The notes beneath the pieces are model-generated. The model had not been told where the DNA came from, did no database searches, and saw nothing but the letters and a program-made list of their open reading frames with translations. Positions 3,407 through 58,657 of a DNA stretch of 64,000 nucleotides are shown here, piece after piece. Numbering within the stretch: the first letter of the stretch is position 1; every line of letters starts with the position of its first letter. This stretch comes from Myroides fluvii (GTDB lineage: Bacteria > Bacteroidota > Bacteroidia > Flavobacteriales > Flavobacteriaceae). The stretch spans positions 1,570,501 through 1,634,500 of the forward strand of contig NZ_CP039934.1 in assembly GCF_009792295.1 (NCBI RefSeq), written 5' to 3'. The position numbers and the translations under genes were made by a program.

Positions 3407-3593
3407 TTTATGATTGTATTTTTCGAATTAAATAACAATATAGTATCAGTAATGTTTATTTGTTGAAAATAACGCATACTTACTCAGAAAGTATTTAAAA
3501 TACATACAAATTTACGTAATACCACTTGGATTTTCATCGGAAAGTTAAAAAAAAACGATTTCTTTTTAAGAATATAAACTGATTTTTTTCAAT

Positions 3594-3601
3594 TAATTTT
3601 G
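3594..3601 (+). promoter_or_regulatory. Putative -7 element of dinB operon
   Basis: TAATTTTG matches the Bacteroidota -7 consensus TAnnTTTG and lies 17 bp before the dinB start. No TTG is at the expected -33 position, so support is partial. Confidence 0.5.
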
Positions 3602-3617
3602 ACCAAATTGCCTTGAG

Positions 3618-4691
3618 ATGAATCGAAAGATTATACATATTGACATGGATGCGTTTTATGCTTCGGTCGAACAATTAGATAATCCTGAATTAAGAGGAAA
3701 GGCTATTGTTGTGGGAGGAAGTAGCGAAAGAGGAGTAGTGGCCGCGGCCAGTTATGAAGCGCGTCAATATGGTGTGCGTAGTGCCATGAGTGGAGTGCTG
3801 GCTAAGAAAAAGTGCCCACATTTGATCTTTGTGCCTCCTCGTTTTGATCGATATAAAGAAGTGTCTAGGCAAATTCGAGCTGTGTTTCAGGAATATACAG
3901 ATTTAGTAGAGCCTTTGGCATTAGATGAAGCCTTCTTAGATGTAACTGAAAATAAAATCGGATGCCCTAGTGCTACGTTAATTGCACAAGAGATTCGACA
4001 AAAGATTTTTGATCGTACGCAGTTAACCGCTTCCGCAGGAATCTCAATCAATAAATTCTTGGCCAAAGTGGCGAGTGATTACAATAAACCCAATGGGCAA
4101 AAGACAATCAACCCTGAAGAGGTGGAGTCTTTCTTGGAAGCACTGGAGATCAAAAAGTTTTTTGGGATAGGCAAGAAAACTGCGGATCGCATGTATCATT
4201 TCGGTATTTTTACTGGGCGTGATTTGAAAGACAGATCCCTTGAATTCCTAGAGGAGCACTTTGGTAAAGCGGGTAAAGCGTATTACTATATTGTACGTGG
4301 TATTCACAACTCACCCGTTAGTCCAGATCGATTGATTAAATCCGTGGGGACGGAACGCACTTTTGATGAAAACTTGAGTTCGGAAGTCTTTCTCGAAAGT
4401 AAACTTGTACATATTGTTGAAGAATTGAGCTTGCGTATGAAAAAACAAAGCTTGGCTGGTAAAACAGTCACCTTGAAAATAAAATATGCCGATTTTGTAC
4501 AGCAGACTCGCAGTACGACCTTTCCGTATTTTATTGCTGATGCAGGTATTATCCTCGATTGTGCCAAAGAGTTGCTCTACCAAGAAGAATTGCAAAACTC
4601 CGTGCGTCTCATTGGCGTATCTTTGAGTAATCTAAATAATAAAAAAGCAGCGAAAAAACCCGTGGCTGTACAGCTGCGTTTTGATTTTTAA
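3618..4691 (+). CDS. dinB: DNA polymerase IV (Y-family translesion polymerase)
   Basis: This 357-residue protein has the Y-family palm motifs: HIDMDAFYASVEQ at the N-terminus with metal-binding Asp9 and Asp11, and LALDEAFLDVT with Asp103 and Glu104. The 'little finger' region occupies roughly residues 240-345. It extends primers past damaged bases at low fidelity. The C-terminal residues AVQLRFDF resemble a beta-clamp-binding peptide of the QLxLF type. It is the first gene of a tight operon with the LD-carboxypeptidase (17-bp gap) and the YraN protein. No SOS operator was recognised. Length and motifs are complete, so it should be functional. Confidence 0.96.
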   Translation: MNRKIIHIDMDAFYASVEQLDNPELRGKAIVVGGSSERGVVAAASYEARQYGVRSAMSGVLAKKKCPHLIFVPPRFDRYKEVSRQIRAVFQEYTDLVEPLALDEAFLDVTENKIGCPSATLIAQEIRQKIFDRTQLTASAGISINKFLAKVASDYNKPNGQKTINPEEVESFLEALEIKKFFGIGKKTADRMYHFGIFTGRDLKDRSLEFLEEHFGKAGKAYYYIVRGIHNSPVSPDRLIKSVGTERTFDENLSSEVFLESKLVHIVEELSLRMKKQSLAGKTVTLKIKYADFVQQTRSTTFPYFIADAGIILDCAKELLYQEELQNSVRLIGVSLSNLNNKKAAKKPVAVQLRFDF

Positions 4692-4708
4692 ATTTCAATA
4701 TTTTCACC

Positions 4709-5611
4709 ATGAGTAAAATGATACCTTCCTATTTGAAAAAAGGCGATAAAGTAGCCCTTGTTTGTACGGCAAGAAAATTTTCAATGCAAGAAGCCCAACC
4801 CGCCATAGCGCTGTTAGCGTCTTGGGGATTAGAAGTGGTTTTAGGACAAACAATCGGTTTAGATAATTTTCAATTAGGAGGAACAGATCAAGAGCGTATC
4901 AACGACTTCAATGCTCAGTTGAAGAACCCCGAGATAAAAGCGATTTGGTGCGCAAGGGGAGGATATGGTACGGTTCGTATCATCGATGCAATTGATTTTT
5001 CTTTATTGATACAACAACCCAAGTGGATTGTCGGATTTAGCGATGTAACAACCTTACACAGCCATGTACACAACTTGGGTATGGCTACCATGCACGGGAT
5101 CATGGCCTTTAGTGTTCCTTTAGCAAAAGAAGAATCAAAGGTTTCGCTTCACAACGCTTTGTTTGGAGCAACACTGTCGTATTCCATTAGCGCAGATCCT
5201 GCAAACAAAAAAGGAAAAGCAACAGGTGAATTAGTGGGAGGAAATCTATCAATCCTCTATAGTTTATTAGGATCAGCTTCGAGTATAACTACCAAGAACA
5301 AAATTCTATTTATCGAAGACTTAGACGAGTACTTGTACCACGTGGATCGCATGATGCATAACCTCAAGCGAAATGGGCTTCTGTGTGATTTAGCAGGTCT
5401 TATTGTCGGAGGAATGACGGACATGCACGACAATTCAATTCCTTTTGGATATAATGCACATGAAATTATTTTAGACGCTGTAAAAGAGTATGATTATCCT
5501 GTAGTATTTAATTTTCCTGCCGGACATGGATCTTCCAATTGGGCTTTAAAATTAGGCACTATTGTTGAACTAGAAGCACAAGACAATCAGGTGACTGTCG
5601 CTTTTAGTTAA
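4709..5611 (+). CDS. LD-carboxypeptidase, peptidase family S66
   Basis: The 300-residue protein carries the S66 catalytic set: Ser111 in GFSDVT, Glu203 in FIEDLDEY and His273 in PAGHGSSNWAL. The conserved ARGGYG motif lies at 82-87. Family members such as LdcA remove the terminal D-alanine from murein tetrapeptides in the cytoplasm during peptidoglycan recycling. A related subgroup (MccF) cleaves microcin C-type acyl-adenylates, and sequence alone does not exclude that role. No signal peptide is visible, consistent with a cytosolic enzyme. It is in the same operon as dinB and yraN. Confidence 0.92.
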   Translation: MSKMIPSYLKKGDKVALVCTARKFSMQEAQPAIALLASWGLEVVLGQTIGLDNFQLGGTDQERINDFNAQLKNPEIKAIWCARGGYGTVRIIDAIDFSLLIQQPKWIVGFSDVTTLHSHVHNLGMATMHGIMAFSVPLAKEESKVSLHNALFGATLSYSISADPANKKGKATGELVGGNLSILYSLLGSASSITTKNKILFIEDLDEYLYHVDRMMHNLKRNGLLCDLAGLIVGGMTDMHDNSIPFGYNAHEIILDAVKEYDYPVVFNFPAGHGSSNWALKLGTIVELEAQDNQVTVAFS

Positions 5612-6154: not shown

Positions 6155-8593
6155 ATGAAGACGTATACTACATTGTTAGTTACCATTTGTGGAGTAATGG
6201 TAAGTTTCGCTCAAAACATCACAATCAAAGGAAGAGTTGTAGATGAGGTTAATAAACCACTACCTTTTGCTACGGTTGTATTAGGAGAAGGGCAAACCGC
6301 TGTTCAAACCAACGAAAATGGGGAGTTCAAATTGAATAATATTCAAAAAGGAAAGCACACGATGAAGGCTTCTTTTGTTGGATATTCAACCTCTCAAAGA
6401 GACATTACCCTGGCTAAAAATGAAGAAATCGTAAACTTTCTTTTGGTTGCAGATAGCCAATTAGAGAACATCACAGTTTATGGTAGAAGCAACAAAAACG
6501 TAAAAAATCTTCAGTATATCACGCGTTTACCACTTGGATTACAAGATCAAGTACAATCCATTAGCATTGTTTCGGAGCACGTAATCAAAGAGCAAGGAGC
6601 ATTGACTATTACAGATGCAGCACGTAACGTTGCAGGGGTAACCCAGTTTTCAAACTATGGTGGACCTGCAGAAAGTATGTCTATCCGCGGATTTAGAGGA
6701 ACACCTGTATTGAGAAATGGAGTTGGAATGGATTCTGATTTTAGAACGGCCTCAGCTATAGCAGATATGCAAGGAATTGAGAGCGTTGAGGTAATCAAAG
6801 GTTCTGCAGCAGTATTACAAGGAATCGGAAACGGTTTAGGAGCTGCTGGTGGAGTAATTAACATGGTGACTAAAACACCAAACTTCAAAAACCAAAGAGA
6901 AGTAAGCTTCAGAGCTGGAAGCTACGGTCAAGTTAGACCAACGGTTGACTTCGAACAAGTATTAGATAAAAAAGAAACGGTTTCTTTCCGTTTCAATGGA
7001 GCATATGAAAGAAATGATGGATGGAGAACGTATGTGAATAATGAACATTTTTACATCAACCCATCCCTAACATGGAAAATCGATAACAAAACCAAGTTAA
7101 CGGTTGAAATGGATTATTTAAATGGGGATTATGTTACAGACAAAGGAACGGTAAACTTAGGTCCAGATTATTCGAATCAACTATATAAAATGCCACATAA
7201 TAAATTTTTAGGTTTCAAAGGAGACGCTAAAAAGATTACCATGCAAAATTATGTTGCGCGTTTCGAAAGACAATTAACTGAAAAATTGAGCGTTAGAACG
7301 TCATATACAGCATCTATTTACAATGAAAATGGGCGTTCGACAAACATAACAACGGTTTTGCCGAAAAAAGAAATTGGAGCAGATTGGAGTAAATATGCCG
7401 ATATCAAACGCACCGTTTCTCAAGGACAATCAGATGATTATAATTCTGTATTTCAAGCAGATTTAATCGGTAAAGACATTTTTACGGGTATTTTAAAACA
7501 TACCTTCCAAATTGGTTTTGATTACAGACAAACCAAAACAATTGCTGGTTCTACAACAGGTAAAGTTTGGGGGAAAGATAAAGGTGGAAACGACGCTTTA
7601 GTTGATTTTAGAAGTGATATCAATGTATTAGGACCCATTGACAATACATTGCCAGAAAACATCATCTACGGAGATATTGCTACAACAAGAACCATGTCGC
7701 CAACTATCGGTTTCATGGCACAAGATTATATTGCTATTGGAGATAAATTAAGTGCGATGTTAGGACTTCGTTATAGCCGTTTGAATGGTAATACTACTGA
7801 AAATGCTACGGTAGATCGTTGGAATCCAATGGTGGGATTAATCTTCAAACCACAAGAAAATATCAGCACATTTGCATCTTATACTACAACAAGTAGCTTG
7901 AGACAATCAAATAAATTGTTACACGGTGGGGGATATGTAGGAGCATCAGATATTAAACAATTTGAATTTGGTTTCAAATCAAACTGGTATAACGATCATT
8001 TAGGTGTAAACTTCACGTACTTCTTCATCAATCAAAGTAACTTAGTAGCGCCTTATATCAATCCAGAAACAAACGAGCAATCAAAAACGGAAAGCATCTT
8101 AGCTGGAGATTTAAAACGCAATGGATTTGAGTTGGAAATCAACGGTAAAATTACCAACAACTTAGAGGTAATGTTAGGCTATGCTAACTTATATGCGAGA
8201 TATCAAGATAGCCCACAATATGTGGATGGTTCTGCGCCAATGAACGCTCCTGAGCATACTGCAAACGGATGGGTAAGTTATAAATTTGACCAAGGTACAT
8301 TAAACGGATTATCGTTGAGCGCAGGGGTTTACTTTGTAGGAAAACGTCCAGTAAACGAATATAGTAGAACGCTAGATAATAGCCATAATACAAACGTAAA
8401 CGTAAGACCATTTGACATGCCTAGCTACACTACGGTGAATGCACAAGCAGCTTATACTTACAAAAACGCTACGTTAAGTGTGTTTATGAATAACCTTTTC
8501 AACGAAAGAGGATACACATCTTACTTCAGAGGAGGATATATCAACGAAATTTCACCTCGAAATTTCGCAGCACAATTGTCGTATAGATTCTAG
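6155..8593 (+). CDS. TonB-dependent siderophore-type receptor with carboxypeptidase-regulatory-like N-domain
   Basis: The 812-residue protein starts with a signal peptide ending near SFAQ (about residue 20). A CarboxypepD_reg-like beta domain follows (about 22-105), then the plug (about 120-250, including ITDAARNVAGVTQ and MSIRGFRG) and a large beta barrel. It ends in an aromatic residue (LSYRF), as outer-membrane barrels do. The plug most resembles ferric-siderophore receptors (FhuA/FecA/FoxA type). It would import an iron chelate across the outer membrane using TonB energy. The downstream PepSY membrane protein supports an iron role. The substrate cannot be named from sequence. No clear Fur site was identified, although iron regulation is likely. 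Confidence 0.93.
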   Translation: MKTYTTLLVTICGVMVSFAQNITIKGRVVDEVNKPLPFATVVLGEGQTAVQTNENGEFKLNNIQKGKHTMKASFVGYSTSQRDITLAKNEEIVNFLLVADSQLENITVYGRSNKNVKNLQYITRLPLGLQDQVQSISIVSEHVIKEQGALTITDAARNVAGVTQFSNYGGPAESMSIRGFRGTPVLRNGVGMDSDFRTASAIADMQGIESVEVIKGSAAVLQGIGNGLGAAGGVINMVTKTPNFKNQREVSFRAGSYGQVRPTVDFEQVLDKKETVSFRFNGAYERNDGWRTYVNNEHFYINPSLTWKIDNKTKLTVEMDYLNGDYVTDKGTVNLGPDYSNQLYKMPHNKFLGFKGDAKKITMQNYVARFERQLTEKLSVRTSYTASIYNENGRSTNITTVLPKKEIGADWSKYADIKRTVSQGQSDDYNSVFQADLIGKDIFTGILKHTFQIGFDYRQTKTIAGSTTGKVWGKDKGGNDALVDFRSDINVLGPIDNTLPENIIYGDIATTRTMSPTIGFMAQDYIAIGDKLSAMLGLRYSRLNGNTTENATVDRWNPMVGLIFKPQENISTFASYTTTSSLRQSNKLLHGGGYVGASDIKQFEFGFKSNWYNDHLGVNFTYFFINQSNLVAPYINPETNEQSKTESILAGDLKRNGFELEINGKITNNLEVMLGYANLYARYQDSPQYVDGSAPMNAPEHTANGWVSYKFDQGTLNGLSLSAGVYFVGKRPVNEYSRTLDNSHNTNVNVRPFDMPSYTTVNAQAAYTYKNATLSVFMNNLFNERGYTSYFRGGYINEISPRNFAAQLSYRF

Positions 8594-20766: not shown

Positions 20767-22665
20767 ATGAGCGACGCACTGCAACACGAATGTGGAATTG
20801 CTTTTTTACGATTAAAAAAGCCTCTATCCTATTATAAAGAAAAATATGGGAGTGCATTTTACCCCATTCAAAAAATGTACTTATTATTAGAAAAACAACA
20901 TAATAGAGGACAAGATGGAGCTGGTTTGGCAAGTATTAAACTTGATATGGAACCAGGCGAGCGCTATATTAGTCGTGTGCGATCAAATAAAGCACAACCC
21001 ATTCAAGATATTTTTGCTCAAATCAACGGGCGTATTAATGCGGAAATGGAAGAACATCCCGAATATGCGGATAGTGCTGATTTACAAAAAAAACACGTTC
21101 CCTATTTAGGAGAAGTATTCTTGGGTCACGTGCGCTATGGAACATTCGGAAAAAATAGCATTGAGAGTGTTCATCCTTTTTTGCGTCAAAACAACTGGAT
21201 GCACCGCAATCTAATTGTTGCTGGAAACTTCAACCTAACGAACGTTAGAGAGTTGTTTGACGATTTAGTGCGCCTAGGACAACATCCAAAAGAAATGTCA
21301 GATACCATTACCGTAATGGAGAAAATCGGTCATTTCTTAGATGATGAAATCGATGATTTATACTACCAAATCAAACAAGAAGGTTTTTCTAAAAAAACGG
21401 CTTCCCCAATTATTGGAGAGCGCTTAGATATTGCTCGTATCTTAAGAAGAGCGTCAAAAAACTGGGATGGTGGATTTACTATGGCTGGAATGTTAGGGCA
21501 TGGAGATGCTTTCGTATTTAGAGATCCAGCGGGAATTCGCCCAGCTTTCTATTATGAAAACGATGAAATCGTAGTAGTAGCAAGTGAACGTCCAGTGATT
21601 CAAACGGCGTTGAATGTGCCATTTGAAGATATTAAAGAACTAACACCAGGTCAGGCAATCATTGTAAAGAAAGATGCAAGTGTACACTTTGAGCAAATCT
21701 TAGAACCACTTCCATTGAAAGCGTGTTCTTTCGAACGCGTGTATTTCTCAAGAGGAAATGACGCCGATATTTATCAAGAACGCAAAGACTTAGGGAAATT
21801 GATTTTTCCACAAGTTTTAGATGTAATCAACAACGATACGGATAATTCCGTATTCTCTTATATTCCGAATACGTCAGAGACGTCTTTCTTCGGTATGATT
21901 GAAGGGGCACAAGACTTCTTGAATCAACGTAAAATTTCGGATATCTTAAAGAATAAAGAATCGCTTTCTGAAGCAAAACTACAAGAGATTTTATCAGTGA
22001 AATTGCGCACGGAGAAAATCGCAATTAAAGATGCGAAATTGCGTACGTTTATCACAGATGACAGTAGTCGCGATGATTTAGTTGCTCACGTATACGACGT
22101 AACCTATGGGGTGATTAAACCAACAGATAACTTGGTGATTATCGACGATAGTATTGTTCGCGGAACGACGTTGAAGAAAAGTATCATCCGCATGTTGGAT
22201 CGCTTGAATCCGAAAAAGATAGTGGTTGTTTCCGCAGCACCTCAAGTGCGTTACCCGGATTGCTACGGAATTGACATGGCGAAATTAGAAGGGTTAATCG
22301 CTTTCCAAGCGGTAATCGAGATGCTGAAAGAACGCAATATGTATCATATCGTAGAAGAGGTATACCAAAAATCAAAAGCGCAAGTGGGCTTAAAAGATGA
22401 AGAGGTAATCAACCACGTAAAAGAGATTTATGCTCCTTTTACAGCGGAGGAAATTTCGACTAAAATCGCTCAAATGGTAACAGAAGAGGGAATCAAATCG
22501 GAAATAAAAATCGTCTTCCAATCGATTGAGAACTTACATACCGCTTGTCCAAAGAACTTAGGAGATTGGTATTTTACGGGTGATTATCCTACAAAAGGAG
22601 GAAATCGAGTAGTAAACCGCGCATTCATCAACTACTACGAAGGTAGAGATGAAAAACCGTATTAA
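20767..22665 (+). CDS. Amidophosphoribosyltransferase-like protein, long form
   Basis: This 632-residue protein combines a class II glutamine amidotransferase domain with a phosphoribosyltransferase domain. The likely N-terminal nucleophile is Cys9 after a short propeptide (QHE|CGIAF). RGQDGAGLAS and GHVRYGTFG follow, as in PurF. The PRPP motif VIIDDSIVRGTTLKKS lies around residue 460. PurF makes phosphoribosylamine, the first committed purine intermediate. At 632 residues it is more than 100 longer than typical PurF, with extra sequence in both domains. It may be a divergent paralogue rather than the main enzyme; other parts of the genome would decide. purN and a PfkB kinase are nearby. Confidence 0.85.
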   Translation: MSDALQHECGIAFLRLKKPLSYYKEKYGSAFYPIQKMYLLLEKQHNRGQDGAGLASIKLDMEPGERYISRVRSNKAQPIQDIFAQINGRINAEMEEHPEYADSADLQKKHVPYLGEVFLGHVRYGTFGKNSIESVHPFLRQNNWMHRNLIVAGNFNLTNVRELFDDLVRLGQHPKEMSDTITVMEKIGHFLDDEIDDLYYQIKQEGFSKKTASPIIGERLDIARILRRASKNWDGGFTMAGMLGHGDAFVFRDPAGIRPAFYYENDEIVVVASERPVIQTALNVPFEDIKELTPGQAIIVKKDASVHFEQILEPLPLKACSFERVYFSRGNDADIYQERKDLGKLIFPQVLDVINNDTDNSVFSYIPNTSETSFFGMIEGAQDFLNQRKISDILKNKESLSEAKLQEILSVKLRTEKIAIKDAKLRTFITDDSSRDDLVAHVYDVTYGVIKPTDNLVIIDDSIVRGTTLKKSIIRMLDRLNPKKIVVVSAAPQVRYPDCYGIDMAKLEGLIAFQAVIEMLKERNMYHIVEEVYQKSKAQVGLKDEEVINHVKEIYAPFTAEEISTKIAQMVTEEGIKSEIKIVFQSIENLHTACPKNLGDWYFTGDYPTKGGNRVVNRAFINYYEGRDEKPY

Positions 22666-22686: not shown

Positions 22687-22713
22687 AAGCACCGAGAGAT
22701 TGGTGCTTTTTTG
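22687..22713 (+). terminator. Intrinsic terminator after PurF-like gene
   Basis: A 7-bp stem (22687-22693 with 22702-22708) is followed by a T-run. Confidence 0.88.
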
Positions 22714-22913
22714 TTTTGAGACTTTTGGTATTCCCTCAGAAAAGAAAGGGGTTGGCTTTTTTTATGCATAGGTATTTGTAAGATACGGTATATTTGAAAT
22801 TTCTAAAGTTATCAAAAGTATCTGTTTCAATCCATCAACCCTAAAAACAAACCTCTCCAAAAGGCACAATTGTTGATGTGATTTAGTTATCTTTAATAAT
22901 CCAGAATAAATTG

Positions 22914-22921
22914 TAGTTTTG
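22914..22921 (+). promoter_or_regulatory. Putative -7 element at the start of the ietAS-like operon
   Basis: TAGTTTTG matches TAnnTTTG and ends only 4 bp before the ATG at 22926, so the mRNA could be nearly leaderless. No -33 TTG is at the usual distance. Confidence 0.45.
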
Positions 22922-22925
22922 CATC

Positions 22926-23882
22926 ATGGCAACAGCAGAGCAAATAAAGTCTTTATTAGAATCGCATTACAAAAATGATAATGAGCGGTTTACTTCCATT
23001 GCACTTCAAGTAGCAGCACATGAAGCGCGCAAGGGCAGTATGACCGTAGCCAACGAGATTAAAGCGCTGGTTGATCGTTCTCAAAAGGATAATTTTCATG
23101 TCATTAAATTAGAACCCAATCTCAGTGATTTGGTACTCGTTTATTATCCAGAGATACAGTTAAACGATTTAGTTTTATCAGACGAAGTTGTAACGAAGCT
23201 AGATCGCATTGTACGTGAATATAAAGAACGCGATAAACTAAGAAAACATGGATTGAGCAATAGAAGTAAGCTGTTGTTGTCTGGTTTACCCGGAACAGGA
23301 AAGACAGCTACGGCTTCTGTTATAGCGGGAGAACTTAAATTACCATTGTATGTGGTGATGATGGATAAACTCATGACCAAGTATATGGGAGAAACGGCAT
23401 CTAAATTACGCCTGATCTTCGATATGATGGTGTCTAAGCGAGGCGTTTATCTCTTTGATGAATTTGATGCCCTTGGTGCAGAAAGAGGAAGAGACAATGA
23501 AGTAGGAGAAATGAGACGCGTGCTCAATGCCTTCTTGCAGTTCTTAGAGCAAGACCAATCCGAAAGTATCATCTTTGGCGCAACAAATAATTTAAAAATA
23601 TTAGATTCAGCCCTCTTTAGACGCTTTGATGATATTATTCATTACGATATTCCTGGAGCGAAAGAAATTGAAGCTTTACTTCAGTTGAAATTACGTGGTT
23701 TTTTAGGTGATTACAGTTTGAAACCCCTTGTTGAAGAGGCCAAAGGACTTAGTCATGCGGAAATAACCAATGCTTGTAATGATGCTGTGAAGGAGATTAT
23801 CTTGGATAATAAAACAATCGTTTCTCAGAAACTACTATTGCAAATGATTAAAGATCGAAAGCAGACTTATCATCTACTCTAA
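22926..23882 (+). CDS. ietA: AAA family ATPase, IetA-like component of IetAS defence/toxin-antitoxin module
   Basis: The 318-residue protein has an N-terminal helical part (1-105) and one classical AAA module. Walker A GLPGTGKT is at 120-127, Walker B YLFDEFDA at 175-182, sensor-1 GATNN at 218-222, and arginine-finger type FRRFD at 231-235. A pore-loop-like KYMGE lies at 152-156. The next gene, 11 bp downstream, encodes a subtilisin-like protease. This pairing defines IetAS, first described as plasmid stability/incompatibility genes on an Agrobacterium Ri plasmid (IetA antitoxin-like, IetS toxin-like) and later found in screens for antiphage systems. Assignment rests on domain architecture and gene order, not on a homology search. 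Confidence 0.85.
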   Translation: MATAEQIKSLLESHYKNDNERFTSIALQVAAHEARKGSMTVANEIKALVDRSQKDNFHVIKLEPNLSDLVLVYYPEIQLNDLVLSDEVVTKLDRIVREYKERDKLRKHGLSNRSKLLLSGLPGTGKTATASVIAGELKLPLYVVMMDKLMTKYMGETASKLRLIFDMMVSKRGVYLFDEFDALGAERGRDNEVGEMRRVLNAFLQFLEQDQSESIIFGATNNLKILDSALFRRFDDIIHYDIPGAKEIEALLQLKLRGFLGDYSLKPLVEEAKGLSHAEITNACNDAVKEIILDNKTIVSQKLLLQMIKDRKQTYHLL

Positions 23883-23893
23883 TGTAATTGCTT

Positions 23894-26347
23894 ATGTCCG
23901 AAAGTTTCAAACCACATTTGTTTGTACAGCATGTTAAAGAACAGCAGGGCTATACAAGGCCAAAAACAAGTTTTGGTGGAATTCCACTTCCAGAAAGGAA
24001 TAAAGAAGCACAAGGAAAACTTGTTTTAGATAGTCTGAATCAGCTATGGACGGGATTTGAGGCAGAAAATAAATATGCTATTCAGCACAATATCCCCATG
24101 CGAAAAGGGGAATATATTACCGTTAAAGGAGAACAAGGGCAAAGTTTAGAAGTAGATACATTAAATAGAAACGGAGGAACCTTTCTCAGTCTAAAAAGAG
24201 AAAATGAAGTAGAAGAAGCAATCATCTATATCCCATTTGAAAAAAGAGAGGCCTTACTTAAAAAGGTCAGTCAATACTTAACTGAATTCACAGCTTCTCA
24301 AAAACCCAAACATCAAAAACTTATCGATAAAATAGCCTCCGTTCAACGTGCTTCTATAGAAGATCTTTGGACGGGAGATTCAGCGCTCCTACCTCAAGAA
24401 GAGGCACAATGGTGTGAGTTATGGTTAACGCTAAACGAGAGTACATGGACAGATGAAGTTCATCGAGAAATCATAGCGATTTTCGATCTATACGATATTG
24501 ATTTTATAGAAGAAAGACAATTCTTTCCGGAACGTACCGTTGTTTCCATTAAGGCCAATCACGTACAATTAGATCATTTAATTAGTTCTTATAGTTATAT
24601 AGCAGAAATAAGAAGATCAGAAGAATTGAATCGCTTTTGGACACGTAATCTTATGGGTGTAGAAAGAGAAGAGTGGTGCGATAATGTTCTGGAAAGAACA
24701 GATTATGAAGAATCTTCTTATGTTGTGACAATATTGGATTCTGGCGTGAATAACGATCACTTACTTATTCGTAATTATTTAAGCGATGAAGATAGACTGA
24801 CTGTTGATGACAACTGGGGAATACGAGATGTAGGATATCAAGGACATGGGACGTCAATGGCAGGTTTGATCTTATATCCAAATTTGCGAACCATATTAGA
24901 ATCAGCAGATCGATATACATTGAGGTATAAATTAGAATCGGTTAAGATATTACCTCCTAATGAGGATATAACGAAAAGAGCTTGGCATTTTGTTACGACT
25001 GATGCGGTGAGTCGAGCCATAATTAGTAATCCCAATCATCAACGAATCTATTGTATGGCGGTTACAGCCACTAATCAAAATGATTTTGGTAAACCCTCGA
25101 CTTGGTCAGCAACTATCGATAGCATAACGAGTGGGGTTGAAGATGGAGAGTCAAAATTGTTTGTTATTAGTGCAGGAAATGTTAGACAGGAGGAGGATTG
25201 GAAGAATTATCCCGAAAGCAATTTGAATTTATCCGTTGAAAGTCCAGCGCAGGCATGGAATGCGATAACCGTTGGTGCATACACAACAAAAACGATTGAA
25301 GGAATAGATACAGTAGCTGGTGCATTTGAGTTATCTCCCTTTAGCACTACATCTGCAAGTTGGGAGTCTAAGTGGCCTGTAAAACCAGAGGTTGTATTCG
25401 AAGGAGGTAACGCCATTAGACGAGAGGATAGTGTTGATTGTGATGAAGAATTAGAATTGTTGACTACTTCTTTTATGGAAGGACAGAATCAGTTTAAAAC
25501 ATTTAGTGCAACAAGTGCAGCAACAGCTTTAGCATCAAATTTTTTAGCGCGATTGAGAGCACAATATCCTGACGCTTGGGTAGAAACGCTTAGAGGGTTA
25601 TTAGTACATGCTGCAGATTGGACACCAGAAATGAAACAGCAGTTTAATACTGATCTTAGAGCTATTCGCAGTAAACAAGAGTTACTGAAGATTTTTGGAT
25701 ATGGCACACCCGATTTTAAAAAGGCAGTACAATGCAAATCGAGCTATCTGACTTTAATTTCTGAAGAAAGAATACAACCCTATAAATTAGAGGATAGACG
25801 AGTTAAGACAAATGAAATTCACTACTATGAATTACCGTGGCCAGCAGCTATTTTAGCCGAATTAGGAGATACAATTGTAAAAGTGAAGGTCACCTTGTCT
25901 TATTTTATAGAACCCAATCCAGGGGAAAAAGGATATTCTACCTCTTACGCCTATCAATCTAGTGCGTTGGAATTTAAGCTAATTCACCCGACAGAAAGCT
26001 TTGAAAATTTTAAGGCAAGAATTAATGAGCAATATGAAAACCCAGAAGGAGAAACGAGTAAGATTACTGATTTGAGATGGTTTTATGGATCATTGTTTAA
26101 AGGTTCTATCCACAGTAATTACATTGAAGGTGCCGCTGTTGAAATTGCTCAGTGCAATAAATTAGCTGTATTTCCCAAGGCTTCGGGTTGGTGGAAAAAT
26201 TTGAAAGGGAAAAATAAGTATAATCAAACGATGCGCTATTCGTTGATCATTTCTATTGAAACTCCTGAATTAGAGACGGATATTTATACCCCTGTTCAGC
26301 TACAGATAGAAAATATGAATCGTATTCAACAAGACGTAGTTATATAA
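23894..26347 (+). CDS. ietS: Subtilisin-like S8 family serine protease, IetS-like component
   Basis: I chose the ATG at 23894 (817 residues); a TTG lies 6 bp earlier. The first 270 residues are a poorly recognisable domain. The S8 catalytic domain follows, with Asp282 in TILDSGVNNDH, His318 in GHGTSMAG, oxyanion Asn429 in ISAGN and Ser541 in SATSAATA. All triad residues are present, so it should be active. About 270 C-terminal residues form a beta-rich tail. No signal peptide is visible, so it probably acts in the cytoplasm. That is unusual for subtilases but expected for IetS, whose activity is thought to be held in check by the AAA partner. The target is unknown. Confidence 0.86.
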   Translation: MSESFKPHLFVQHVKEQQGYTRPKTSFGGIPLPERNKEAQGKLVLDSLNQLWTGFEAENKYAIQHNIPMRKGEYITVKGEQGQSLEVDTLNRNGGTFLSLKRENEVEEAIIYIPFEKREALLKKVSQYLTEFTASQKPKHQKLIDKIASVQRASIEDLWTGDSALLPQEEAQWCELWLTLNESTWTDEVHREIIAIFDLYDIDFIEERQFFPERTVVSIKANHVQLDHLISSYSYIAEIRRSEELNRFWTRNLMGVEREEWCDNVLERTDYEESSYVVTILDSGVNNDHLLIRNYLSDEDRLTVDDNWGIRDVGYQGHGTSMAGLILYPNLRTILESADRYTLRYKLESVKILPPNEDITKRAWHFVTTDAVSRAIISNPNHQRIYCMAVTATNQNDFGKPSTWSATIDSITSGVEDGESKLFVISAGNVRQEEDWKNYPESNLNLSVESPAQAWNAITVGAYTTKTIEGIDTVAGAFELSPFSTTSASWESKWPVKPEVVFEGGNAIRREDSVDCDEELELLTTSFMEGQNQFKTFSATSAATALASNFLARLRAQYPDAWVETLRGLLVHAADWTPEMKQQFNTDLRAIRSKQELLKIFGYGTPDFKKAVQCKSSYLTLISEERIQPYKLEDRRVKTNEIHYYELPWPAAILAELGDTIVKVKVTLSYFIEPNPGEKGYSTSYAYQSSALEFKLIHPTESFENFKARINEQYENPEGETSKITDLRWFYGSLFKGSIHSNYIEGAAVEIAQCNKLAVFPKASGWWKNLKGKNKYNQTMRYSLIISIETPELETDIYTPVQLQIENMNRIQQDVVI

Positions 26348-26368
26348 AGGTTCTTAAGTGAATAACTC

Positions 26369-27769
26369 TTACCCCAACCAAAAAAAGTAAGCCACTGTAC
26401 CAATAATCACGGCACAGAAAACATTCAAGATAAACCCCGCTTTCATCATGTCTTTTTGTTGAATATCTCCCGTACCGAATACAATCGCATTTGGAGGTGT
26501 AGCTACAGGAAGCATGAATGCACAAGAAGCACCGAGTCCGATAATCATGGAAAGTCCCAGGGGATGCATGCCCAATTCTTGAGAAATCGAGAAGAAGATG
26601 GGAACTAAAAGTGCTGCACTCGCGGTATTCGAGGTAAATTCCGTCAAGAAGACAATAAAGAAAGCCACAACTAGGCTGATGATGAAGAACGAACTACCTT
26701 GAATAATGGACACGAGTAAATCGGCCATGACCTTACTTGCGCCCGAATCTTTTAGTACCATACTCAACGTCAATCCCCCGCCAAATAAAAGTAAAACACC
26801 CCAATCGACATTGTGTTGCAGTTCTTTCCATCGAGAGACTTGACTGACGCAAATAAGAATAAATGCCCCAAGTGCAATGAAAGTATCAAAGTTCTTGAAC
26901 GTACCTTCAAATCCAACCAAAGCTGCAAATAATGGATTGATTTGATTGCTCAAAATCCAACAAATCGCCGTTAACAAGAAAATACCCAAGGTAATCCAGC
27001 GATCCGTGTTCATGGGAATAGATTCCATTTGATGTTCAAATTTCTGGTTGAGTTTGGGTTTAAAGACAAAATAAATCACAGCAATCATCAAAGGCAAGAG
27101 GATTATCACCATGGGAAAACCCATTTTGAGCCATTCTGCGAAGGAGATATTCAATTGAGAAGCAACGATGGCATTGGGAGGGCTTCCGACAATCGTTCCC
27201 ATTCCACCAATACTTGCACTATAAGCAATACCCAACAAAACAAATACGTAGGTATTGCGGTGTTGTGCTTTGTCCATTTGACTTAATATTCCCGTTACGA
27301 GCGGGAGCATCATAGCGACCGTAGCTGTATTGCTGATCCACATAGAGAGCACAGCCGTAGCGAGAAATAAATAAAAAATAGCATGAGCTAATCGACCTTT
27401 GGCTAAGTACATAATCTTACTGGCGATAATTAAATCTAACTTTTGTACGTGTAGAGCCCCAGCAAGTACAAAACCCCCTAGAAATAGAAAGATATTCGGA
27501 TCGGCAAAGGAAACGAGTGCGGGTTGAACATCTGTTAGTCCTAATCCAATGGCGAGCACGGGAACAAAGACAGCGGTTGTTGTGACGTGTAGTGCCTCTG
27601 TCAGCCATAAAACGGCCACAAAAGCCAACAGAGCAAGGCCTTTATTTACTTGAGGTTCATAGGGTAGAAAGCGAATTAAAGCAAAGAGCATCAATACGTT
27701 TAAGCCAATGATAATATAGTTTCGTTTGGATTTATGTCTAAGACTTTCTGGTTCGTAATCGAGTCGCAT
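26369..27769 (-). CDS. SLC13/DASS family sodium-coupled anion transporter
   Basis: The 466-residue protein has about 11-12 hydrophobic segments and the two repeat motifs of this family: WISNTATVAMMLP (about 145-157) and FTSNTASAALLVP (about 375-387). The SNT motifs bind sodium and substrate carboxylates. It would import dicarboxylates, sulfate or similar anions with Na+ across the inner membrane; the substrate is not resolved. It converges on the ietS-like gene with only 21 bp between stop codons and no clear hairpin there. Confidence 0.88.
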   Translation of the reverse strand: MRLDYEPESLRHKSKRNYIIIGLNVLMLFALIRFLPYEPQVNKGLALLAFVAVLWLTEALHVTTTAVFVPVLAIGLGLTDVQPALVSFADPNIFLFLGGFVLAGALHVQKLDLIIASKIMYLAKGRLAHAIFYLFLATAVLSMWISNTATVAMMLPLVTGILSQMDKAQHRNTYVFVLLGIAYSASIGGMGTIVGSPPNAIVASQLNISFAEWLKMGFPMVIILLPLMIAVIYFVFKPKLNQKFEHQMESIPMNTDRWITLGIFLLTAICWILSNQINPLFAALVGFEGTFKNFDTFIALGAFILICVSQVSRWKELQHNVDWGVLLLFGGGLTLSMVLKDSGASKVMADLLVSIIQGSSFFIISLVVAFFIVFLTEFTSNTASAALLVPIFFSISQELGMHPLGLSMIIGLGASCAFMLPVATPPNAIVFGTGDIQQKDMMKAGFILNVFCAVIIGTVAYFFWLG

Positions 27770-28653: not shown

Positions 28654-31600
28654 ATGATTAAAGCGGAAACAGCTTCATTTTCAGTATATAACGCCTCTGC
28701 GGGTTCGGGAAAAACACATACATTAGTAAAAGAATATTTAAAAATTGTCTTAGTGGATCGATCGGATGATGCCTATCGAAAAATTCTGGCGATCACCTTT
28801 ACCAATAAAGCGGTGGCAGAAATGAAAAATCGAATTCTTTCTTGCCTTTATGCCTTCTCTCAAAAAGAAACAGGAAGTAAGTTTCAATCCATGCTGGATC
28901 AGCTTGTGGAAGAAACGGGATTGAAAGAAGAGGAAATCAAAAAGAAATCCGAGCGTATCATGAAGCATATTATCCACAATTACGCTTCTTTTGATATCTC
29001 TACCATTGATAAATTCACGCATAAGGTGATTCGCTCTTTTGCCTTTGACCTAAATTTACCCATGAGCTTTGAAGTGTCGCTTGACTCGGATGAACTGCTA
29101 CAAGAGGCCGTGGATTCTGTAATTGCCAAAGCGGGAACAGATGAAGAGCTAACCAAAGTGTTAATCGACTTCTCTATTGACAAAGCCGATAATGACAAGA
29201 GTTGGGATATTACCCGTGAGTTAAAGGAAATGGGTGCGTTGTTATTGAATGAAAACAACCGAGACGAGATTGCTCTATTTGATAAAAAAACACTTCGTGA
29301 TTTCGTGGTCTCTCGAGACTACTTGCGAAAAAAAATAGAAGAGTTGACTGTGGAAAGTCAGCAAAGAGGACAAGCTATTTGGGATTTGCTGATAGATAAA
29401 GGCGTAGATATGAAATCATTCTCTCGCGGAACGTTTCCCAATCACCTCTTGGCCATTATTAATGATACGGATAAAAGTACCCAACGAAAGTATGTTGAGT
29501 TTGATGAGGTAGCTATTTTAAAGGCTGCCAAGGATCGAGATACCATTGAGGCATTATTACCTGAAGTGTTGAAGCAATTAGAGGTTATTTACCAATTATT
29601 TGCCAAGCGCTTATTTTATCAAGCGTTTTTGAAAAATATCACTCCCTTGTCGCTACTAAATATCTTGGGCATTGAAATGCAACATATTCAAGAAGAGAAA
29701 AATATGTTGTCTATTAGTCAGTTTAATGCGATTATTCACAACGAGATTCAGCATCAACCAGCGCCTTTTATCTATGAACGATTAGGCGAGCGCTACCGCC
29801 ATTTCTTTATTGATGAGTTTCAGGATACCTCTGTGATGCAGTGGGATAATCTCGTGCCTTTGATTGACAATGCTCTAGCAGGTGAGGATTTTGGGGTAAA
29901 AGGTACCCTGATGCTGGTCGGAGATCCCAAGCAATCGATTTATCGTTGGCGCGGGGGAAAGGCAGAACAATTTATTGCTCTGAGTAAAGACGATAATCCC
30001 TTTTCTAACCCCGACAAAGAAGTTGTGGTCTTAGGGAAGAACTACCGCAGTTATTCGGAAGTCATTCAATTTAATAATACGTTTTTTAGTGGCATTTCTT
30101 CTTTTTTTACCCAAGAGGATTATAAGCATATTTATGAACATCAAAGCTATCAAGAGATAAATGCGAAAGTTGGCGGTTATGTCAACGTGCAATTTCTAGA
30201 TGAAAGTTTACTGGATAAAGAAAGCGAAATAGACAAAGAACAACTCTATCTCCAAGCAACCTTAGCAACGATCCAAAGTTGTAAGGCGCAAGGGTTTATG
30301 TATAGTGATATGGTGGTGCTAACGCGTAAACGCGCCCATGGTATTGCGCTGGCCAATTATTTAACAGAGCAGGAAATCCCAATTCTATCGTCTGATTCGC
30401 TGTTGATTAGTCACGCGACAGAGGTGAGATTGATCATGGATGTTCTGCGTTATATCCGCAACAAAGAAGACAAGGAGTCTAAATCGATGATCCTATATTA
30501 TATCGCCAGTATAAGGCAACAAGAAGCAACGCACGATTTTATTGAAGAAGGATTGGCTTATACCGTAGATTCGGAATTTGAAGCTTGGTTACTGACCAAA
30601 GGAGTTGTGATCTCTTTTGATCAATGTAGAAAAAAATCGCTCTATGAAGCAGTGGAAATTATCGTTCGCGCTTTCTTTCCCACCAAGGCGACGAGTTCGT
30701 ATGTTTTGTATTTCTCGGATATTGTGTTGGAGCGCACCATCAAGAATCAATATGGAATAGGGGATTTTATTTTGTATTGGGAGGATAATAATCACAAATT
30801 TAGTATTCCAACTCCAGAAGGAAAAGAAGCGGTGCAGTTAATGACCATCCACAAATCCAAAGGATTGGAATTTCCGGTTGTTATATTCCCTTTTGCAGAA
30901 GAAGATTATGACCGGTCTAATCGCGATAAATTGTGGGTTGAATTTGATGAACTTGACGAGGGAATTGAATTGCCCAAGGCTTTAGTGGATGCCAAGAAAG
31001 AAGTCAGAGAGTACGGAATATATGCCGAAAAACTATATGCCGAAAAAGAACAAGAAGAACTCCTCGACAATATTAATGTATTGTATGTTGCCTTGACAAG
31101 AGCCGAGGAACAATTGCATATTATTACCACGCGAGACATGAAAATCGATGGGGAGTACAAGAATAATATGTCTCGTTTTTTCATTCACTATTTGCGTCAA
31201 CAAGAAAGGTATCAAGAAGAAGAGCATGTCTATGCGTTTGGAAATCCGTGCCGATTATCAAAAGCAAGTGGTACGCTTGCGCTAGATCAAAATAAATTAA
31301 TTGAAAGTGTTGAATCCCTTTTTAACTTTAATGATATTAAAATAGCTGAACGCGAAGCTTTGATGTGGGATACCCAAGTAGGGGAGGCGATAGCATACGG
31401 GAATATCACCCATAAAATTATGTCGTTTATCCAGGGGAATACAGACATTGATACAGCAATTGAACGTGCTTTAGAAGAGGGACTCATTGTTGAAAGTGAG
31501 AAAATCAACTTCACTCAGGCCATTAAACAAATTATTACCCATCCAGATCTGCACGTGTTTTTTGCTGAAGGACGTGTATATAATGAACGGATGATTATTG

Positions 31601-31809
31601 GGAAAAACAAGAATAATCTCATTCCTGATCGCGTATTGATTCAGGGGAATAAAGCGTATTTATTGGATTATAAAACGGGAAAACCAGAAGAAAAATATAT
31701 CAAACAGTTAGCTAAATATGAGGAATCACTTCGAGAGATGGGGTATGAAGTAGCTAAAAAAGTTATTTTATATATGGGAGTGGATGATTTAAATATAATA
31801 CATTTGTAA
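28654..31809 (+). CDS. addA: AddA-like UvrD-family helicase with C-terminal PD-(D/E)XK nuclease
   Basis: The 1051-residue protein has helicase motif I NASAGSGKTH (13-22) and DEAD-type motif II FIDEFQDTS (about 386-394). VGDPKQSIYRWRGG, MTIHKSKGLEFPVV and the late helicase motif VALTRAEEQL follow. A C-terminal nuclease motif LLDYKTGKP lies near residue 1010. It is the motor-nuclease of an AddAB/RecBCD-type complex that resects double-strand breaks for recombination and degrades foreign linear DNA. The AddB-like partner is not adjacent but lies 2.8 kb downstream, after kbl and an ompA-like gene. That arrangement recurs in flavobacteria as far as I recall. The symbol is by analogy. Confidence 0.87.
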   Translation: MIKAETASFSVYNASAGSGKTHTLVKEYLKIVLVDRSDDAYRKILAITFTNKAVAEMKNRILSCLYAFSQKETGSKFQSMLDQLVEETGLKEEEIKKKSERIMKHIIHNYASFDISTIDKFTHKVIRSFAFDLNLPMSFEVSLDSDELLQEAVDSVIAKAGTDEELTKVLIDFSIDKADNDKSWDITRELKEMGALLLNENNRDEIALFDKKTLRDFVVSRDYLRKKIEELTVESQQRGQAIWDLLIDKGVDMKSFSRGTFPNHLLAIINDTDKSTQRKYVEFDEVAILKAAKDRDTIEALLPEVLKQLEVIYQLFAKRLFYQAFLKNITPLSLLNILGIEMQHIQEEKNMLSISQFNAIIHNEIQHQPAPFIYERLGERYRHFFIDEFQDTSVMQWDNLVPLIDNALAGEDFGVKGTLMLVGDPKQSIYRWRGGKAEQFIALSKDDNPFSNPDKEVVVLGKNYRSYSEVIQFNNTFFSGISSFFTQEDYKHIYEHQSYQEINAKVGGYVNVQFLDESLLDKESEIDKEQLYLQATLATIQSCKAQGFMYSDMVVLTRKRAHGIALANYLTEQEIPILSSDSLLISHATEVRLIMDVLRYIRNKEDKESKSMILYYIASIRQQEATHDFIEEGLAYTVDSEFEAWLLTKGVVISFDQCRKKSLYEAVEIIVRAFFPTKATSSYVLYFSDIVLERTIKNQYGIGDFILYWEDNNHKFSIPTPEGKEAVQLMTIHKSKGLEFPVVIFPFAEEDYDRSNRDKLWVEFDELDEGIELPKALVDAKKEVREYGIYAEKLYAEKEQEELLDNINVLYVALTRAEEQLHIITTRDMKIDGEYKNNMSRFFIHYLRQQERYQEEEHVYAFGNPCRLSKASGTLALDQNKLIESVESLFNFNDIKIAEREALMWDTQVGEAIAYGNITHKIMSFIQGNTDIDTAIERALEEGLIVESEKINFTQAIKQIITHPDLHVFFAEGRVYNERMIIGKNKNNLIPDRVLIQGNKAYLLDYKTGKPEEKYIKQLAKYEESLREMGYEVAKKVILYMGVDDLNIIHL

Positions 31810-34605: not shown

Positions 34606-37365
34606 ATGAGTCAACAACGTTTTTTATATCAATTCTGCGTAGAAATAAAGAAGGATTTTCCTTCATCTATGGACAATCTAGTAGTGGTATTACCCAATAA
34701 ACGGGCCAAGGTCTTTTTGTTAGAACAACTGAAATCGTTTTACGATCATCGTATTTTTGCTCCAACGATTATTAGTGTTGAAGAATTAGTTCAAGATATT
34801 GCTCAATTAAGAGGGATTGATTCGATCGAGCTCTTGTTTGAGTTCTATCTCGTCTATAAACAATTGTTAGCAGATAAGGCTGAAGATTTTGACTATTTTG
34901 TCAATTGGGCTAGAATGTTGTTACAAGATTTTAATGAAGTTGATCGATATTTGTTGAATCCACAACATGTGTTTAGTTATTTAAAAGATATTGAAGACAT
35001 CAATCACTGGGCAGTAGATGTAAATCAACAAACCGATTTAGTGAAAAACTATCTTCAGTTTTGGGAGCAAATACCCAGGTATTACACTGCGTTATACGAG
35101 CATCTCAAATCGAAGAAGATTGGCTATCAAGGCATGATTTACCGCGAAGCGGTAGCGGTGCATCAAGATTTCGTAAAATCTAGTGATAAGCAATATTACT
35201 TTGCAGGATTTAATGCGTTGAATGCAGCGGAAGAAGTGATTATTCAACACTTCTTAGTGGAAGGTAGGGCAAGAGTTTTTTGGGATATTGATGAGGCATT
35301 TTTACATGATCCATATCACGATGCAGGGTTGTTTTTGAGGAGGATTAAGCAAAAATGGGGGTACTATCAAAATCACCCTTTTGAGTGGATCACCACTTGT
35401 TTTAGTGCGGAAAAAAAGATTGAAATTATACAAACGCCCAAAAGCGTTGGACAAGCAAAAATTGTTGGTGCTATCGTCGATAAAGAATTGGCAAAAGGAA
35501 CTTCTTTAGATGAAATAGCAGTGGTTTTGGGAGATGAAAACCTACTACAACCTGTATTATATGGACTTCCTAATACCGTTACTAGTCTAAATATCACGAT
35601 GGGGTATAGTGGAAATAGTAGTCCCGTACAGCTGTTTTTGAACAAAATATTTAAGATGCATTTGGCCGCCGTGCGCCGTGGTGGAAAACAGTATGTATTT
35701 TATTACCGCGATGTGTTAGAAGTATTGACGAGCCCTGTAATGGAAGGCTTGTTTGATGTGGAGGCTGTCGTGTCTGAAATACAGAAAAAAAACTTGACTT
35801 TTTTCTCCTTTGACCGCTTTGAGTCTTGGATAAAAGCCTCAGATGAAGAAACCAAGCGATTGGTTTTTGACAATTGGCAAGACAAAGCTCCAGCGGAAAT
35901 ATTAAAGAGCTTAATTGCTTTGGTTATTCGGGTGAAAAATAAATTAGCAGTAGATAGTCAACAGAATCGCTTGATGAAAACTTTTTTGTTTACTTCTTAC
36001 AATTTGCTAAATCGACTCCTGTCGTATTGCGAAAAATATCCATTTATTCATTCTTTGGATCTACTCCATGTGCTGTATAAGCAGATTATGGATATGAGCG
36101 AGGTGTCTTTTGAAGGTGATCCTCTCGAGGGACTACAAATTATGGGAATCTTAGAAAGTAGGGTGTTGGATTTTGAAACGGTTATTCTTACCTCGGTAAA
36201 TGAAGGAAAATTCCCTTCTGGAAAAAGTCAAAATTCCTTTATTCCTTATGATGTAAAAAGAGAGTTAGGCTTGCCAACTTATAAAGAAAAAGATGCAATT
36301 TACAGTTTTCACTTTTATCATTTACTGTTGCGTGCAAAGCAAGTGTATTTGATTTATAATTCCCAGGCGGAGGGTATGGATGCGGGAGAAAAGAGTCGAT
36401 TTTTGACTCAATTGGAAATGGAAAAGCAAGCGAAGCATCAGTTGTCCAACGTGACTTATTCTGCTTATTTGCCCGATAAGGCCTATGAGCCTATGGCCAT
36501 TGAGAAATCGGATGAATTATTGATGAAATTGAAAGAGATTGCAACAATCAGAGGTTTTTCTCCTTCAGCTTTGACGGCTTATTTGCGCAATCCATTGCAG
36601 TTTTATATTCAACAAGTTTTGCGTATTCGCGAAGTGGATGAGGTAGAAGAAAGTGTTGCCTTGAATACGTTGGGAACTATTATTCACAACGCCTTAGAGA
36701 ATTTATATCAACCCTATGTTGGTAAAGTGTTGGACGTGGGAATGATTCGGGAAATTCAAGCTAAAGCAGATGAGGAAGTGCAAGTGCAATTTGAAGAGAT
36801 CTACAATAGTGATAAAGAAAAAATGGGTAAAAACCTCTTGGCTTTTGAGGTTGCTAAGCGAAACGTTTATCATTTCTTACGCGAAGAGTTAAAAGGCTTA
36901 GAACAAGGAGACCAGGTGGAATTGTTAGCGTTAGAAACGCGCCTAGAACATCTGTTAGAAGATAGTCGTTTGCCCTATCCGATTAAACTATTTGGCTTTG
37001 TCGATCGAATTGAACGTCGCAATGGAAAAATTCGCGTTATTGATTATAAAACGGGAAAAGTAGAGTCTAATCAGGTCAAATTATCCCAATGGGAAGGACT
37101 AACAGAACATTTAAAGCACGATAAAATTATTCAGCTGTTGTGTTATGCCTTGATGTATGCAGAGAAAGAAAATTTATCCTCATTAGAGGCGGGTATTTAC
37201 TCGTTTAAAAACCGAAGAGAAGGTTTCTTGTTCTTTGGTGTTCGCGAAGGAAGAGCGGTAAATCACGACATCACGCCTGTGATTTTGGATGCGTTTAGAG
37301 AGGAATTGATTAAGCTTATTTTAGTTATTTTAAACCGGGAAACTCCCTTTGTGGAAACCTTATAA
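34606..37365 (+). CDS. addB: AddB-like PD-(D/E)XK nuclease family protein
   Basis: The 919-residue protein starts with an inactive helicase-like domain: NLVVVLPNKRAKVFLLEQL stands where active members have a Walker A loop. It contains LQIMGILESRVLDFETVIL, the region equivalent to helicase motif IV/V in AddB. The RecB-type nuclease domain is at the C-terminus, with VIDYKTGKVE around residue 815. The four-cysteine iron-sulfur staple of Firmicutes AddB is not visible: FSPSALTAYLRNPLQFYIQQ has Asn-Pro where the first C-terminal cysteine is expected. It would pair with the AddA-like protein in break resection. The symbol is by analogy. Confidence 0.82.
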   Translation: MSQQRFLYQFCVEIKKDFPSSMDNLVVVLPNKRAKVFLLEQLKSFYDHRIFAPTIISVEELVQDIAQLRGIDSIELLFEFYLVYKQLLADKAEDFDYFVNWARMLLQDFNEVDRYLLNPQHVFSYLKDIEDINHWAVDVNQQTDLVKNYLQFWEQIPRYYTALYEHLKSKKIGYQGMIYREAVAVHQDFVKSSDKQYYFAGFNALNAAEEVIIQHFLVEGRARVFWDIDEAFLHDPYHDAGLFLRRIKQKWGYYQNHPFEWITTCFSAEKKIEIIQTPKSVGQAKIVGAIVDKELAKGTSLDEIAVVLGDENLLQPVLYGLPNTVTSLNITMGYSGNSSPVQLFLNKIFKMHLAAVRRGGKQYVFYYRDVLEVLTSPVMEGLFDVEAVVSEIQKKNLTFFSFDRFESWIKASDEETKRLVFDNWQDKAPAEILKSLIALVIRVKNKLAVDSQQNRLMKTFLFTSYNLLNRLLSYCEKYPFIHSLDLLHVLYKQIMDMSEVSFEGDPLEGLQIMGILESRVLDFETVILTSVNEGKFPSGKSQNSFIPYDVKRELGLPTYKEKDAIYSFHFYHLLLRAKQVYLIYNSQAEGMDAGEKSRFLTQLEMEKQAKHQLSNVTYSAYLPDKAYEPMAIEKSDELLMKLKEIATIRGFSPSALTAYLRNPLQFYIQQVLRIREVDEVEESVALNTLGTIIHNALENLYQPYVGKVLDVGMIREIQAKADEEVQVQFEEIYNSDKEKMGKNLLAFEVAKRNVYHFLREELKGLEQGDQVELLALETRLEHLLEDSRLPYPIKLFGFVDRIERRNGKIRVIDYKTGKVESNQVKLSQWEGLTEHLKHDKIIQLLCYALMYAEKENLSSLEAGIYSFKNRREGFLFFGVREGRAVNHDITPVILDAFREELIKLILVILNRETPFVETL

Positions 37366-58438: not shown

Positions 58439-58657
58439 AATATAACTGTTATTCTCAAGAACAGGCATTAATCCACGGCAAAATGAAATACATACCACAA
58501 GTACTATTGCCTCATCTAACGGTGTGTTTGATGAGATAATACCTAGAGGTCATGTATAAATCGCGCACTATTGGATAAATACTGCTGTTGAGTTGATACA
58601 TAAATACGATAAGAACCACGCGCTATTTTTACAGCACGAGGTAAGGGACTTGATGTA

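Follow-up and report, generated by a model that had tools for sequence, protein, structure and literature searches.

Described relatives of the pair

IetAS systems join an AAA ATPase gene to an S8 subtilase gene, and one such pair lies in the stretch of the Myroides fluvii genome analyzed here (64,000 nucleotides, positions 1570501-1634500 of a single 3.77-Mb contig, hereafter the window). The prototype, ietAS of plasmid pTiC58, was reportedly described by Yamamoto et al. in 2009, and Gao et al. are said to have reported IetAS as antiphage in 2020. Compared by description, SgiAT of Salmonella genomic island 1 has the same gene order and protein types; the available portions of its paper present a subtilisin-like toxin with an AAA antitoxin, the protease being toxic and the ATPase neutralizing it, and treat pTiC58 ietAS and SgiAT as toxin-antitoxin stabilization systems (PMC5006074). 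Unlike the M. fluvii pair, SgiAT is borne by an integrative mobilizable element, according to the same portions (PMC5006074). Its expression, as far as the available account goes, is not under SOS regulation in Salmonella and rises ~1.5-fold in E. coli. TA132/3 of Mycoplasma mycoides subsp. capri, likewise compared by description, is a chromosomal AAA ATPase/subtilisin-like toxin-antitoxin pair from a host of a different phylum, and the accessible text states that its protease alone is toxic and its ATPase neutralizes it (PMC8562856). In the part available, a 2023 review tabulates ietAS in the row for changes in functional phage proteins, and the IetAS mechanism is called unknown in excerpts of papers from 2023 and 2025. 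No paper on this mechanism was found in the open-licence literature, where IetAS with escape mutants led to one review.

The M. fluvii pair resembles the IetAS systems defined in PADLOC in having the ATPase gene directly upstream of the S8 subtilase gene, full catalytic motifs, and matches to the models of both proteins. The PADLOC search reports IetA (PDLC02196, E 1.1e-70) over residues 2-310 out of 318, that is most of the length of the ATPase, and IetS for the protease with PDLC02198 (E 2.1e-34, residues 277-723) and PDLC04233 (E 1.7e-30, residues 267-812), the N-terminal third of IetS being matched weakly or not at all. The IetAS identity proposed in the initial annotation is thereby upheld. 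By these profile comparisons the pair is a divergent but ordinary member of the known IetAS system, graded divergent because it falls far below the NCBI IteA/IteS equivalog cut-offs, and it is a relative of these narrow equivalogs, not one within them. Unlike the prototype, which is known to us by description only, the pair is chromosomal, and no mobility gene was seen adjoining it: no tRNA was found in the window, and no integrase appeared on reading the adjacent genes or in Pfam scans of 10 of the 46 other window open reading frames (ORFs). Both the chromosomal setting and the lack of a tRNA or integrase beside the pair had been proposed from the sequence beforehand. The system itself is known; what is new is its site, which occurs in cleanly empty, replaced, and alternatively filled forms.

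An exchange site between purF and an SLC13 gene

The two genes, both intact and complete in their catalytic motifs, stand in the fixed order of the family and occupy a site that varies in near relatives. The left flank is purF (20767-22665, plus strand) and the right flank an SLC13 transporter gene (26369-27769, minus strand), their stop codons lying 3,703 bp apart in the window. The pair had been placed "between housekeeping genes"; purF and SLC13 do flank it, but the latter is accessory in the genus, with a close copy (at least 78% identity) in only 13 of 398 same-genus genomes, the host counted, and purF lies convergent beside it in all 13. The closest of the 12 relatives by PurF (98.6% identical; genome G270) has a purF-SLC13 gap of ~56 bp. 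Blastn homology to this genome extends up to window position 22712 and resumes at 26369, so that its empty site sets the limits of the inserted segment at ~22713-26368 (3,656 bp). Taken in the relatives as the distance separating the two coding matches, the gap is empty in eight of the 13 genomes (56, 60, 67, 77, 80, 110, 113, and 115 bp), short in two (405 and 669 bp), and filled in three, by IetAS in the window, a DRT2-type set in G075 (5,836 bp), and a KAP gene in G371 (3,488 bp). An intact IetS match is absent from all 12 close relatives, 11 of which show no match at E ≤1. Flanked by genes, and empty or filled with other defence-like cargo in near relatives, the interval is a defence exchange slot. 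The gain and loss whose absence would, according to the initial annotation, have told against the IetAS proposal are visible, and the locus is not fixed.

The G371 slot (locus L146) contains one gene of 1045 codons (1761-4895) whose product has a KAP NTPase domain (6.6e-24) and matches a PifA model over residues 164-474 (2.6e-29), and which is, from these matches, a candidate defence gene in its own right. The DNA around it matches the window insert, on the left to position 22796 (88.8%) and on the right from 26222 (89.2%), and retains the last 44 ietS codons, 84% identical at the protein level. Judging from this remnant and from the insert homology on both sides of the KAP gene, an IetAS copy once stood in the G371 slot and has since been replaced. 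The cargo of G075 comprises a Drt2 reverse transcriptase (2.2e-126), an RTasWYL-YodC protein (1.5e-96), and a PD-Lambda-4_B-like protein (1.6e-9). The same locus (L032) bears at 7687-7797, by the DRT2 cargo and downstream from a TonB-like gene, a second copy of ~110 bp from the 3' end of purF with its terminator, which by sequence looks like a recombination scar.

Among the neighbouring gaps taken as controls, pfkB-purF measures 66-79 bp in all 10 relatives with both genes in the fetched DNA, and purN-rnhA 1-26 bp in all nine such relatives. A general hotspot between purF and sodA was considered and dropped. These genes were mapped in 121 same-genus genomes, of which 116 have both, 99 on the same contig and 93 convergent within 20 kb (purF is missing at the cut-off in four, and the weaker SodA matches of G050, G084, G096, and G103 were left out). 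The gap has a median of 509 bp in the 93 convergent genomes and is at most 2 kb in 88 of them, and three of the five gaps above 3 kb (G080, G039, and G089) contain ordinary genes, judging by their ORFs.

The IetA ATPase

The ietA gene (22926-23882, plus strand) encodes a classical AAA ATPase of 318 residues, as assigned from its ORF, Pfam, PADLOC, alignment, and a structural model. The module had earlier been given a start at 22914, which needs correction: a promoter-like TAnnTTTG lies there (22914-22921, plus strand), which we take to be the -7 element of Bacteroidota, ending 4 bp upstream of the ietA ATG. This motif begins exactly 12 nt upstream of the ATG in six pairs (the window, L038, and L050-L053), a fixed distance suggesting that the ATPase transcript may be nearly leaderless. 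It is found at most 66 nt upstream of ietA in 11 of the 12 loci examined, L042 being without it, and occurs 85 times in the window, both strands counted.

Pfam reports an AAA domain (1e-27), and the protein comprises an N-terminal three-helix part (residues 4-55) and an AAA core (~66-318) with an aromatic pore loop, KYMGE (152-156). Alignments were built from the window, nine of the 11 fetched same-genus loci, three plasmids, and 36 (IetA) or 40 (IetS) of 80 loci from named genomes. Residues K126 (Walker A), D178/E179 (Walker B), and N221 (sensor-1), as well as R232/R233, are invariant in all 49 IetA rows, so the ATPase motifs are as intact as first described, and the aromatic-hydrophobic-Gly pore loop is kept across the alignment. 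In fold, the IetA model comes closest to p97, Rpt, PAN, and FtsH, and this resemblance, together with the aromatic pore loop, suggests a PAN/FtsH-type ATPase.

The IetS protease

The ietS gene (23894-26347, plus strand) follows after 11 bp, in agreement with the spacing given before, and encodes an S8 subtilase of 817 residues; its ATG is at 23894, and an in-frame TTG at 23888 would lengthen the protein by two residues. The catalytic domain (residues 276-604; 24719-25705, plus strand) is delimited by the Pfam match to Peptidase_S8 (PF00082, 2.9e-54) and by fold matches. The triad D282/H318/S541, rightly called intact from the start, is invariant with N429 in all 53 IetS rows. No hydrophobic stretch appears at the N-terminus by reading the sequence, no signal-peptide program having been run, which fits the earlier view that IetS has no signal peptide. 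A single-sequence search returned no relatives in the PDB, while a profile search reports subtilases only (best 2.7e-10) among the best 60 of 93 matches. The host genome has one match to IetS at E ≤0.001. The part following the catalytic domain (residues 605-817; 25706-26344, plus strand) is beta-rich and measures 213 residues, not the 270 first stated, since the S8 match ends at residue 604. Its modelled arrangement suggests a beta domain like that of KP-43-type subtilases, and KP-43 and ProN-Tk-SP are the fold counterparts of the modelled catalytic and C-terminal parts together, as PAN and FtsH are for IetA. To our knowledge, these counterparts are extracellular proteases or motors of the proteasome and of membrane proteases, without IetA-IetS-type pairing.

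The N-terminal tail (residues 1-34; 23894-23995, plus strand) exhibits a KPHLFV motif followed by a segment predicted to be disordered (residues 21-34, with a predicted local distance difference test score below 50 in the model). A pattern H-[LIVMF]-x-[FLIVM] lies inside the first 45 residues in 43 of the 53 IetS rows. Just before the catalytic domain, residues 172-241 (24407-24616, plus strand) form a predicted beta-alpha-beta-beta-alpha-beta module with a ferredoxin-like strand order in the model, which suggests a ferredoxin-like module, the fold search having barely tested the N-terminal fold. Subtilase I9 prodomains occupy this same place directly before the catalytic domain. No I9 prodomain was recognized by sequence, residues 172-241 matching no inhibitor family and having no sequence match in Pfam or the PDB.

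Distribution and pairing of the two genes

An IetS match is present in only 13 of 199 same-genus genomes, the host counted; the outcome set beforehand as refuting, a conserved housekeeping family, was not seen. For 11 of the other 12 loci ~20 kb of DNA was fetched, and each shows the same order, with the ATPase gene directly upstream (G005, with a 327-aa frame only, and a second G135 match were left out of this count). A scan of named genomes, from which the best 80 loci, spanning many phyla, were used, reports the ATPase directly upstream of ietS in 77, namely 76 by ORFs, including four short or cut frames (L102, L105, L115, and L117) and L118, 397 bp away, and L083 by tblastn; in the remaining three the contig ends at most 464 bp upstream. 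IetS matches occur on 439 plasmid records, 375 of them over at least 80% of the protein, with 36-37% identity among the 20 listed, and only two matches come from phage records. An ATP-binding protein gene stands just upstream of the S8 gene in all three plasmid matches inspected.

In an IetA tree of 46 rows, the genus is represented at four separate positions (G119 by Chryseobacterium, for example, and G098, G150, and G052 by Zobellia), a scatter that favours repeated transfer. The IetA and IetS distances correlate (r 0.925 for 46 pairs; 0.834 for 42 pairs with a distant clade removed). Together with the strict pairing, this fits a physical IetA-IetS partnership, although the correlation is no proof of it because the two genes are also inherited together. 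No general clustering of the pair with defence genes emerged, and few flanking ORFs match defence models: among 85 chosen flanking ORFs from nine loci, a tally without a control set, PDC-S06 appears in two, and TmtA, type I restriction, and DrmD in one each. Three of 10 neighbours of other pairs scanned for defence models have matches and seven have none. Beside the F. cellulosilyticum pair stand genes for TmtA and type I restriction, and the surroundings of the G045 pair include a PDC-S06-like ATPase fragment.

Proposed mechanism and alternatives

We consider it probable, with some reservation, that the chromosomal IetAS pair is cargo in a small exchange slot, with IetA braking IetS until infection and the cargo being swapped via its flanks. 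IetA would form a PAN/FtsH-like AAA ring that keeps IetS inactive, probably through a grip on its N-terminal part. Infection would disturb IetA or the complex and free IetS, the freed protease would cut cytoplasmic proteins, and the infected cell would halt growth or die ahead of phage spread. Cargo would probably be exchanged by homologous recombination through purF and SLC13, not by an integrase of its own. A bolder and rather unlikely version makes IetS an AAA-gated subtilisin whose N-terminal motif and disordered tail would be the handle for the IetA pore, the ATPase braking the protease by pulling on it or holding it; a phage product blocking IetA or competing for the pore would release the protease, and the slot would be a miniature site of defence exchange run by homologous recombination alone.

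Several findings weigh against the reading of a braked protease carried as exchangeable defence cargo. NCBIfam IteA (NF042959) and IteS (NF042956) are the rank-one models for the ATPase and the protease, but with 192.5 bits against a cut-off of 510 and 65.6 against 900, respectively. The GC content of the pair (0.375) equals that of its surroundings (3.4-kb mean 0.377) and gives no compositional sign of recent arrival, so base composition was rejected as evidence of transfer, and no repeat pair brackets the insert, only short pairs being present elsewhere. The G075 slot also holds its TonB-like gene and a 108-aa ORF, both without PADLOC matches. The rnhA-pfkB gap exceeds 1.8 kb in four of nine relatives, with genes that are not defence-like by reading, so variability here extends beyond defence. 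The PADLOC matches listed contain no other convincing defence system in the window.

An addiction module, in which IetS, freed by loss of the unstable IetA, would kill the cell and phage defence would be incidental, is a possible but rather unlikely alternative. It agrees with the stabilization role ascribed to pTiC58 ietAS and SgiAT in the available portions of the SgiAT paper, and with the plasmid records carrying IetS relatives, 312 of the 439 being typed conjugative. It is at odds with the single-contig chromosomal setting without an integrase among the adjacent genes as read, with the replacement of the IetAS copy in G371, and with the defence-like nature of the other slot cargo; moreover, SgiAT expressed from its own promoter gave no post-segregational killing, as stated in those portions (PMC5006074). 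Less likely still, IetA could be a positive partner, its ring unfolding phage or host proteins and passing them on to IetS in the way that PAN supplies the 20S proteasome. The p97, Rpt, PAN, and FtsH folds, the kept pore loop, the strict pairing, and the correlated distances would all suit such a role, but in SgiAT and TA132/3, as far as the accessible accounts go, the protease is toxic by itself and is neutralized by the ATPase. An ordinary role of the pair in protein quality control or as housekeeping proteases of the genus, with which its GC content would agree, is very improbable and already contradicted by the patchy distribution, with an IetS match in 13 of 199 same-genus genomes, no intact one in the 12 close relatives, and copies of the genus in four parts of the IetA tree.

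The slot offers a natural series, from the empty site of the relative with a 98.6% identical PurF to the replaced IetAS with its ietS scar and the reverse-transcriptase system, and indicates that a ~56-bp gap with no tRNA or integrase seen adjoining can be a site of defence-cargo turnover. The models add a specific structural hypothesis, in which an ATPase of PAN/FtsH-like type, its pore loop retained, would face a protease with an N-terminal tail; this tail is conserved in most members despite its predicted disorder. Both make the mechanism that the excerpted papers call unknown more accessible to test.

Other features of the window

A second variable gap, rnhA-pfkB, lies two genes away and spans 1.8-4.1 kb in L145, L150, L152, and L153; in G270 it contains a gene for a 1157-aa collagen-like-looking protein. 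Among the best 25 of 31 PADLOC families matched in the window, a tally without gene assignment, RTasHel, GajB, PsyrT, and ShosT were taken as housekeeping look-alikes, by which an AddA-like helicase and phosphoribosyltransferases are meant. Genes for a helicase that reads as UvrD-like and for a PD-(D/E)XK nuclease lie near each other at 28654-31809 and 34606-37362 (plus strand) and are probably AddA/AddB, the helicase probably accounting for the GajB matches. Lastly, positions 54083-58498 (minus strand) encode a single protein of 1472 residues that combines an AcrB-type transporter (ACR_tran) with an outer-membrane efflux protein domain (OEP).
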